NCBI GenBank assembly: GCA_012962595.1 | Contig: DTXE01000453.1 | Location: 1 to 11,188 of the forward strand | Direction: 5' to 3' | Origin: Syntrophaceae bacterium | Lineage (GTDB): Bacteria; Desulfobacterota; DTXE01 | DNA: 11,188 bases | Shown: positions 4,357 through 5,866 of the stretch, piece after piece | Layout of the letters: each line of letters opens with the position of its first letter | How positions within the stretch are numbered: position 1 is the stretch's first letter | The notes under the pieces: model-generated | What the model saw: only the letters and a program-made list of their open reading frames with translations | The model's database searches: none | Told to the model about the DNA's origin: nothing | Position numbers and translations under genes: made by a program

Positions 4357-4824
4357 TCACTTGAAGGCTAATACACTCACACCTTTTGAGTTATCGAATC
4401 TTTTTATGGCATCTATGCCTTTTAATTCCAGAATCATGGCCTCTATAAACAGATACACTTGCATTCTCTCTCTCAAACACCCCATCAAAGTCTCACCAGC
4501 TCTACCAGCAACCCCATGGAGGTGAATTTTAGGCATATTCCCTTCCCAAAATATACTTCCCAGGGCTAAAATCTCTCGTCCATCTGAAAATCTATCCCAG
4601 AGAGGATTAGGAGGAATGACGGGGCTTTCAGGTCCTGTGACTAGTTCTGCCGATTCTAATCCCCCTAAAATGAAGAGCCAGCCTGTCTTAATAACCTTCT
4701 CCTTCACAAAGGCAGATAGTGCATCAAGGAGGTCATCCCCATGATCAAATCTTATGACGAAAACTCGTCCTATGGTTCCTTCCTGATATTCCATTTGTCC
4801 TAATTTTGCTTCAGGATAACCCAT
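4357..4824 (-). CDS. PPC/DUF296 domain protein
   Basis: Single PPC (DUF296) domain, the small trimeric fold found alone in bacteria and attached to AT-hooks in plants. Seen: GRVFVIRFDHGDDLLDAL near 19-36, GWLFILGGLESAEL, LALGSIFW, and the HLHG metal-site motif (His101, His103). The downstream position that is often histidine (GGHL-like) is cysteine here (MGCLRE, Cys116). Cellular role unknown; DNA binding is annotated for the family but not shown for stand-alone bacterial members. The frame is given from ATG 4824. A second ATG at 4794 (residue 11, MEYQEGTIGR) has AGGA just before it. It sits downstream of a TTGACA-N17-TATCCT promoter whose -10 box falls inside the longer frame, so 4794 is the more likely start. 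First gene of the operon. Confidence 0.85.
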   Translation of the reverse strand: MGYPEAKLGQMEYQEGTIGRVFVIRFDHGDDLLDALSAFVKEKVIKTGWLFILGGLESAELVTGPESPVIPPNPLWDRFSDGREILALGSIFWEGNMPKIHLHGVAGRAGETLMGCLRERMQVYLFIEAMILELKGIDAIKRFDNSKGVSVLAFK

Positions 4825-4841
4825 TCCTCTATCTATGTCAA
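4813..4841 (-). promoter_or_regulatory. Candidate sigma-70 promoter of the PPC-mtaB operon
   Basis: On the minus strand, TTGACA (4841 to 4836) is separated by exactly 17 bases from TATCCT (4818 to 4813). Transcription would start near 4806, about 12 bases before the ATG at 4794, with AGGA in that leader. The -35 is perfect and the -10 matches 4 of 6. Confidence 0.5.
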
Positions 4842-4869
4842 TTCTGGGACTTTACAGGACTTTCCCCAT

Positions 4870-5009
4870 TTTTCGTGGAACCCATTGTTCCTGAGCGAAA
4901 ATTATATGTGTGCAGTGGGGATACCCATCGAGGTGAGCAGGAAGGGGAAAGGGCAGATAGGCGACTATCGAAAGCCTCTGAGCGAAGGAATAATGGGTTC
5001 CACTGAAAA
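4870..5009 (+). ncRNA. Unrecognised ~140-nt structured element (candidate RNA or MITE-like repeat)
   Basis: Arms 4875-4892 and 4986-5003 pair over 18 consecutive positions on the plus-strand RNA, with a single G-U (4887/4991). Past a bulged T5004, five more pairs (4870-4874 with 5005-5009) extend the helix. Inside are a TGGG-GATA-CCCA hairpin (4916-4927), a GAGG/CCTC helix (4930-4933 with 4975-4978), and a GATAG-GCGA-CTATC hairpin with a GNRA loop (4956-4969). A purine-rich stretch lies between them. TGAGC occurs three times (4892, 4934, 4979); the first and last copies are TGAGCGAA at the junction of the outer helix. The wobble favours the plus strand as the RNA. I do not recognise a known riboswitch or RNA class. 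The long terminal arms would also fit a small non-autonomous mobile element. Confidence 0.5.
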
Positions 5010-5030
5010 CTCATGAAACCCTAGTACTTG

Positions 5031-5060
5031 GGAGGGGGATTGATTATTGCCTCCTTTTTT
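5031..5060 (+). terminator. Possible intrinsic terminator after the structured element
   Basis: GGAGG (5031-5035) and CCTCC (5050-5054) form a 5-bp stem with a 14-nt loop, followed directly by six T (5055-5060). It lies 22 bases past the structured element and overlaps the candidate PAC2 promoter. The loop is long, so this is tentative. Confidence 0.4.
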
Positions 5061-5068
5061 GCTAATAT
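5040..5068 (+). promoter_or_regulatory. Candidate promoter of the PAC2 gene, near-leaderless
   Basis: TTGATT (5040-5045), 17 bases, then TAATAT (5063-5068). Transcription would begin near 5075, about three bases before the ATG at 5078, which has no Shine-Dalgarno. The same -10 hexamer and spacing recur before the phosphoesterase gene. Confidence 0.45.
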
Positions 5069-5077
5069 CAAAAAATT

Positions 5078-5866
5078 ATGAGATCCTTGTTCAAGGTGAT
5101 TAAAAAACCTTCTCTTCGATTACCCTACTTGATGGCCGCCTGGCCTGGGATGGGTAATGTAGCCCTAAATGCGGTCAACCATCTTCGATTGCAATTAAAA
5201 GCAGAATTCTTTGCCGAGATAGACCCAGCTGATCTTTTCCATATTCCAGGTATTTTCATCCATGAGGGTCTTATTGTTCCCACTCAACTCCCTGAAAACA
5301 AATTTTATTATTGGAAAAACAGAGAGTCGGAGCATGATTTGATCCTTTTTATTGGAACCAATCAGCCTATCCCTGGAAAAGAGCTGATATTAGCCAATCA
5401 GATTTTTCTTGCTCTGGAGGCGTTTCAAATTTTTAGAGTTATTACCTTTGCGGCCATGCCTACCCCTATTCACCACCGTCAGAAGCCTAAAGTTTGGGCA
5501 ACTGCTACCCATTTTGAACTGATAACAGAGATAAAATATTATTGTGATAATCTAATGAAAGAGGGTCACGTTTCAGGTATGAATGGATTTATCTTGGGTG
5601 CAGCCCAAAAAAGGGGGATAGAAGGGTGTTGTTTTTTGGGTGAGATTCCCCACTATACTACCCAGGTGGAAAATCCCAGATCATCAAAGGCTGTCCTGCA
5701 AGTAGCAACAAACCTACTCAAAATTTCAGTAGACATGACAGAATTAGACCACTTGGCTGATTACATGGAAACCCAGATTGATCAATATTTGCGTCAGTTG
5801 AAACAAGAAATGAAATCGGAGAGGGACATAAGCGGTGAAGATAAAGGTTCCGGTTATGTCCACTGA
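5078..5866 (+). CDS. PAC2 family protein
   Basis: 262 residues of the PAC2 family (related to eukaryotic proteasome assembly chaperone 2; archaeal and bacterial members are of unknown function). Seen: PSLRLPYLMAAWPGMGNVAL at the N-terminus with a G-x-GNV turn (24-28), DLILFIGTNQPIPG near 87-100, ITFAAMPTP, NGFILGAA, CFLGEIPHY (185-193) and NPRSSKAVLQVATNLL near 199-213. The C-terminal 40 residues are charged and helical. A bacterial proteasome is not implied by this gene alone. The start ATG lacks an SD, but the N-terminus matches the family and a promoter lies just upstream. Its TGA overlaps the ATG of a 50-codon ORF (ATGA-type overlap), so the two are probably co-translated. It diverges from the PPC operon. 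Confidence 0.85.
   Translation: MRSLFKVIKKPSLRLPYLMAAWPGMGNVALNAVNHLRLQLKAEFFAEIDPADLFHIPGIFIHEGLIVPTQLPENKFYYWKNRESEHDLILFIGTNQPIPGKELILANQIFLALEAFQIFRVITFAAMPTPIHHRQKPKVWATATHFELITEIKYYCDNLMKEGHVSGMNGFILGAAQKRGIEGCCFLGEIPHYTTQVENPRSSKAVLQVATNLLKISVDMTELDHLADYMETQIDQYLRQLKQEMKSERDISGEDKGSGYVH

Follow-up and report, generated by a model that had tools for sequence, protein, structure and literature searches.

A probable miniature inverted-repeat element of Desulfobacterota with an RNA-like interior and a preference for the upstream side of −35 boxes

Results

A structured element between two divergent genes

The 11,188-nucleotide stretch of Syntrophaceae bacterium DNA analysed here (contig DTXE01000453.1, hereafter the window) carries a compact structured element between a PCC (PF03479) domain protein gene (4357..4824, minus strand) and a divergent PAC2 family protein gene on its other side (5078..5866, plus strand). 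The original prediction, made from the letters of the window, had placed it within 140 nucleotides (4870..5009), and it proved to be longer, with a left terminal inverted repeat CAGGACTTTCCCCATTTTT at 4855..4873 and a right one AAAACTCATGAAACCCTAG at 5006..5024 (both plus strand). They agree with the family consensus (CTGGAGTTTCCTCAGTTTT for the left end) at 15/19 and 16/19 positions, respectively, and with each other at 11/19. Thirteen base pairs outside the left end lies a −35 box, TTGACA (4836..4841, minus strand). As set out below, the element is probably a deletion derivative of a miniature inverted-repeat transposable element (MITE) whose family inserts just upstream of such boxes and whose hairpin interior is kept as RNA.

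The fold of the window copy is dominated by outer helix P1, whose 5’ arm (4875..4892, plus strand, from fold and covariation) pairs with the 3’ arm (4986..5003, plus strand, from the fold) over 18 uninterrupted positions with a single G-U (G4887-U4991), as had been predicted. The proposed 23-bp length held for these 18 pairs and the bulge that follows; beyond this one-base bulge the minimum free energy fold has four further pairs instead of five, giving 22 in total. The 140-nucleotide element folds at −55.5 kcal/mol compared with −35.2 (sd 3.7) in 200 shuffles (z −5.45), none of which was as good. The 18-pair stem is the longest found in the window within 220 nucleotides (the runner-up has 16), and its length alone is modestly beyond chance, with stems of 13-17 reached by five mononucleotide shuffles. 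The GNRA hairpin GATAG-GCGA-CTATC (4956..4969, plus strand), a second tetraloop hairpin and three copies of TGAGC (4892, 4934 and 4979) are likewise present. A covariance model matched the structured RNA-like core at 4869..5007 on the plus strand with 76.7 bits and an E-value of 4.6e-15, the window copy itself (L001) being one of the 22 copies in that model.

The window core is shortened in comparison with its full-length relatives of about 183 nucleotides. Helices P6 and P7 of most relatives are missing at an approximate junction read from alignments (4951..4952), as they are from L002, a copy in the same genome, and the tail of about 60 nucleotides that full-length relatives carry is absent. 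The GNRA hairpin is shared with copies L002 and L004 of the window genome, while most copies from other genomes have a CCC-GAAA-GGG-like hairpin in its place.

Dispersal among genomes

At the DNA level the window's own genome has 12 matching places, that of the window among them (11 others); several lie close to the ends of contigs, and some represent a single copy split into two pieces. Sequence matches were found in 8 of 148 genomes, own included. Of 395 genomes in the phylum, 14 (the own genome among them) under 8 family labels were matched by a covariance model built from 22 copies; for 8 of these 14 the best six candidates were scored in each, so copy numbers there are lower bounds. Searching 84,980 species genomes with a 36-base pattern returned 49 stretches in 12 assemblies, titled Desulfobacterales, Desulfobacteraceae, Syntrophobacterales, Deltaproteobacteria, or only Proteobacteria/Pseudomonadota, and viral contigs gave no match to one strict pattern. 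Copy number can be high. In hosts such as genome G354 the element is marked by the end sequence CTGGAGTTTCCTNAGTTTT, and a 19-base end (at most 2 mismatches) occurs 228 times in G354, compared with 0 for a reversed control pattern.

No Rfam family reached its gathering score in the window, and at gathering and loose thresholds nothing came near a gathering score on the element, and the original reading, too, had been unable to match it to a known class. Across 14 other loci only one tRNA, outside the element, passed. Weak model matches with diverged interiors were seen in genomes G197 and G187 (L050 1454-1630, L063 1462-1683 and L051 1501-1674), which may be remote relatives; no telling partner gene was found near those in G197.

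Anatomy of the mobile element

Many full-length copies have flanks in which the ends CTGGAGTTTCCTCAGTTTT and AAAACTCAGGAAACTCCAG lie about 266 bp apart, defining an element that has terminal inverted repeats of 19 bp, a conserved hairpin some 183 nucleotides long and a site like that of integration host factor (IHF) in the tail. It is short and multi-copy, with no transposase gene inside. Paired ends define 64 distinct elements, counting the window copy, and 38 of these show a clean target-site duplication (at least 8 bp with at most one mismatch), with lengths of 8 bp in 24, 9 bp in 10, 10 bp in 3 and 11 bp in 1. Many genomic copies flanked by such duplications are what the original prediction had named as the mark of a mobile repeat, and the MITE-like alternative that it had set beside a small RNA was right.

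The IHF-like site WATCAANNNNTTR is frequent in the tail. It is exact in 7 of 63 distinct tails (an earlier set of 66 with duplicates removed) compared with 0.35 expected from shuffles, and matches at 12/13 or better in 29 of the 63 compared with 6.2 expected; in 21 of these 29 it sits at positions 20-22 after the hairpin.

Other interiors occur between the same ends in some elements. A shared alternative of about 350 bp replaces part of the hairpin in L103 (1756-2450), L110 (2105-2603), L141 (1501-2007) and L105 (6396-6954), as though a second repeat had moved in or taken its place. Conversely, genome G009 (L019, L033, L036, L042, L055 and L066) has the same RNA core between unlike tips, GTAATNCCTCAGT. 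By eye, TTGACA lies about 20 bp outside L033/L066 and L055 and not 11-13, and end type and box spacing may vary together in the G009 copies.

Candidate transposases were sought by Pfam family in incomplete genomes. PF01609 and PF01610 (3 genomes each) gave 3 and 1 matches, all in G278; PF00872 (5 genomes) gave 4 fragmentary matches in G354, G278 and G166; PF12762 (5 genomes) gave none; and PF03050 (6 genomes) gave one fragment in G016. None of these matches carries the element’s ends, the most found around them being scattered 15-mers of the ends with up to 4 mismatches. Ten open reading frames chosen among those beside unpaired ends were ordinary genes or unmatched.

Insertion at a fixed distance from −35 boxes

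The −35 box beside the window copy has counterparts throughout the family. Among 132 distinct ends, 20, 20 and 8 carry TTGACA (at least 5/6) at outward offsets 11, 12 and 13, respectively, compared with 0-3 at any other offset. A larger set of 176 distinct ends gave 63 with the box at offsets 11-13 and none at 21-23; 35 of the 63 come from G354 and the remainder from eight other genomes, so that 9 of 16 labelled genomes are represented, some labels being inferred. Counted per element, the box (at least 5/6) lies 10-14 bp outside an end in 46 of 64, compared with 1-5 in every other 5-bp window. In 18 of 47 a −10-like hexamer (at least 4/6) stands exactly 17 bp from the box, an enrichment compared with 0-8 at any other spacer. 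In box-anchored composition C at −1 reaches 0.60, the final A 0.68, T at +23 0.55 and A at +24 0.57, with TTGAC nearly invariant, in part because rows were picked by the box. Among 21 ends with the changed tip GTGGACTTTCCCC (family label f17), the box was matched 7 times at offsets 11-14 and 3 times outside this range. The 7 include one match already counted in the first set, and two that represent a single site occurring in two genomes.

The duplications place the cut. A box accompanies 29 of the 38 clean elements, and the gap between duplication and box is 3 bp in 28 of them and 4 bp in one, even though a box sought at offsets 10-14 could have produced gaps of 0-6. The 3-bp gap holds whether the duplication is 8, 9 or 10 bp, indicating that what the −35 box fixes is the promoter-proximal cut and not the distance between element and promoter. 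Such a fixed cut-to-box gap argues for recognition at insertion over later selection. None of the 38 clean elements has a box on both sides. Where orientation could be assigned in clean elements (24), the RNA 5’ end points toward the promoter in 18 and the 3’ end in 6. An open reading frame with a ribosome-binding-site-like start lies downstream of the box in 29 of 43 and in the opposite direction in 25 of 43, making this test uninformative.

Covariation in the interior

To follow the fold across the family, alignment A1 took 22 copies from 37 loci (L018 was left out because its 3’ end was unmatched by the pattern), and alignment A2 took 83 matches from 84 sources, 78 of them distinct, excluding the window copy as below threshold. 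In A2, standard pairs fill 94.0% of pair cells compared with 82.4% when shuffled, and the covariation score is 0.373 compared with 0.173. Double changes occur at 27 of 47 pairs, so that the covariance-model check for compensatory change suggested in the original prediction came out positive. When the structure was slid along the alignment the paired share dropped to 36-51%. A smaller MAFFT alignment that includes the window copy gave 91.7% compared with 84.8% paired and a covariation of 0.263 compared with 0.152, with one of five measures reached by 13 of 500 shuffles. Helices 2, 3 and 5, deep inside the element and remote from its ends, also covary, and conserved internal-loop motifs are present. 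On the strand corresponding to the plus strand of the window, pair cells hold 209 G·U and 64 A·C. Compensatory change combined with this one-strand G·U excess suggests that a folded RNA, beyond the symmetry of DNA, appears selected. It is therefore likely, judging from these sequences, that the interior is structured at the RNA level on the window plus strand, in agreement with the strand originally chosen.

Predicted promoters of the neighbouring genes

The TTGACA outside the left end is followed at a 17-bp spacer by the −10 box TATCCT (4813..4818, minus strand), and a promoter scan also picked up TTGACA-N17-TATCCT (4841-4813, minus strand). By inference, this pair would serve as promoter of the PCC-domain gene, the promoter-proximal neighbour. 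Should this −10 box (4818-4813) be genuine, that gene would probably start at the ATG at 4794 and not at 4824; the PCC Pfam domain begins at residue 20 of the longer, 4824-start form.

On the PAC2 side, a weaker promoter-like pair, TTGATT-N17-TAATAT (plus strand, 5040-5068), lies just ahead of the gene and within a T-tract hairpin that had been reported to follow the element. The pair is absent from the promoter scan, which lists a minus-strand pair at 5071-5043 near the gene instead. The hairpin itself amounts to no more than a 5-bp stem closing a long loop; its reading as a terminator did not survive a terminator scan of the window, which returned 0 sites.

Discussion

We consider it probable that the window copy is a MITE deletion derivative, mobilized in trans by a transposase that inserts upstream of −35 boxes, with a hairpin interior kept as RNA. 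The element would be a non-autonomous one of Desulfobacterota, its inverted repeats being acted on in trans by the putative transposase at a set place just upstream of a −35 box (TTGAC[A]). One cut, on the side facing the promoter, would fall 3 bp from the box and the second 8-10 bp further out. The duplicated stretch occupies what we take to be the usual position of the UP element, which leads to the reading that the core promoter is left intact and only the upstream (UP-element) region would be displaced. The target might be recognised by direct reading of the box or by docking on sigma/RNA polymerase. Selection on one strand would maintain the hairpin of about 183 nucleotides as RNA, whose presumed transcript may fold and stabilise, insulate or be processed so that the insertion is tolerable, or may serve mobility. 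A bolder version, which we offer tentatively and think doubtful, is promoter-finding transposition, in which the transposase, alone or via sigma region 4 or the alpha C-terminal domain of RNA polymerase, gauges a distance of 3 bp to the −35 box and cuts where an UP element would lie, while the RNA acts in trans, either in this process or in re-wiring the promoter beside which the element lands.

Several observations weigh against the reading of a box-directed MITE with an RNA interior. The box is missing at its expected place in 18 of 64 paired elements and in 9 of 38 clean ones (L076, L084, the second element of L105, L120, L135, L141, L152, L162 and L168), and one of the 46 box-bearing elements, L115, has a box on both sides. 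The reverse motif TGTCAA occurs at 3, 3 and 6 of the 132 ends at offsets 11, 12 and 13, compared with 0-4 elsewhere. No target-site duplication is recognisable at the window copy, so decay or rearrangement of its right junction is probable. An autonomous partner was not found in the five Pfam families searched; IS1, IS6, IS3/IS21-type, DEDD, IscB and TnpB were not searched. As to the RNA, A2 was fitted to the covariance model, toward which the G·U counts may also lean; 154 pair cells hold other mismatches, and the copies are related, making cell counts non-independent events.

The rival that deserves most attention, while still unlikely in our estimate, holds that the hairpin matters only as DNA, as a cruciform or as a single-strand hairpin at transposition. 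The outermost pairs of the window fold do fall in the inverted repeats themselves, and long palindromic stems are common in bacterial MITEs according to the passages available (PMC2229807). Against it stand the 209 to 64 predominance of G·U over A·C on one strand and the covariation in helices 2, 3 and 5. Insertion could alternatively be random, with copies beside promoters surviving because the spot is harmless or useful, as suits the normally intergenic location of MITEs reported in the parts of the literature at hand (PMC10969869) and the nine clean copies that have no box. We think this improbable, because selection acting on spacing would hold the element at a constant distance from the promoter, whereas it is the 3-bp gap that does not change while duplications range over 8-10 bp.

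Two further explanations centre on the RNA, and we give both very little credence. Vertical inheritance of a host RNA, either a non-coding RNA gene or a riboswitch-like leader, would account for the strong compensatory change, the conserved internal-loop motifs and the strand-specific G·U, but it is largely refuted by the patchy spread (14/395 genomes), the many copies in several genomes, the inverted repeats and target-site duplications, the absence of an Rfam match or of a terminator in the window, and the location of most copies upstream of promoters. A riboswitch would sit between promoter and start codon on the strand of its gene, while 46 of 64 elements lie upstream of the −35 box; the independent small RNA or riboswitch-like leader of the original prediction, read as ending in a terminator, is not supported on these grounds. 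The remaining rival makes the RNA a guide, like a seekRNA, bridge RNA or omega-RNA, that steers insertion to TTGACA, since IS110/IS1111 elements, as far as the sources at hand describe them, likewise combine a structured RNA with strict choice of target. Neither TGTCAA nor TTGACA occurs in any of the 78 distinct RNAs, and the RNA as a fixed guide to TTGACA was rejected for that reason; loops complementary to the target, as in bridge RNAs, were not found in a test that covered a fixed guide to the box only. The shorter GTCAA occurs in 21 of the 78, compared with 8 expected, among related copies. Duplications of 8-10 bp also speak against a guide, as does the lack of an Rfam HEARO match, with DEDD transposases, IscB and TnpB not searched. 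The observation behind the original prediction is confirmed and its interpretation partly supported; RNA-level structure and a mobile repeat are not mutually exclusive.

Bacterial MITEs are described as having an intergenic preference, IHF sites, stem-loop transcripts and internal promoters, and the consulted passages of the same papers contain nothing on a fixed distance from −35 boxes (PMC10969869, PMC2229807). The Correia/NEMIS MITE of Neisseria is, in these passages, similarly short, bounded by inverted repeats and near genes, with an IHF site in its longer form and a transcript that folds as a long stem-loop (PMC2229807, PMC10969869). By contrast, its promoters as described there lie inside the element, whereas here the promoter lies beyond the element, at a constant distance from it. 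ERIC, RU-1 and other enterobacterial intergenic repeats are also dispersed and palindromic with RNA-level effects on adjoining messages, but differ in sequence and length, and −35 anchoring is not mentioned in the passages on them.

The Correia duplication is presumably of TA type, unlike the 8-10 bp found here. Duplications of 8-10 bp and IHF-assisted ends are known from insertion sequence (IS) families such as IS10 and IS1. The present family resembles these IS families in its inverted-repeat ends, duplication length and subterminal IHF-like site, and differs from them in that no matching transposase was found here, IS1-type transposases not being searched; we know of no IS family with these tips plus a −35 target. 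With IS110/IS1111, as far as the bridge RNA and seekRNA accounts at hand go, it shares a structured non-coding RNA in a mobile element and specific target choice, and it is unlike them in having inverted repeats, 8-10-bp duplications and no fixed guide to TTGACA. The Ty1/Ty3 retrotransposons insert upstream of Pol III promoters and thus have a comparable set insertion place that spares the gene, but they are unrelated eukaryotic retroelements with an integrase. Abstracts of the openly licensed literature, a weak basis for a negative, yielded no earlier report of fixed-distance insertion beside −35 boxes.

The family is therefore a MITE of a known kind with two features that are unusual as far as found, an RNA-like interior and −35-anchored insertion. 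The former amounts to an unclassified, covarying RNA family within a mobile element. As to the latter, small bacterial repeats are usually said to favour intergenic DNA loosely, and insertions tied to the −35 box this tightly, to within a single base, would make the family a natural system for finding promoters. If true, this would provide a handle on promoter or polymerase recognition by a transposase, and copies of the element would mark promoters in uncultured bacteria.
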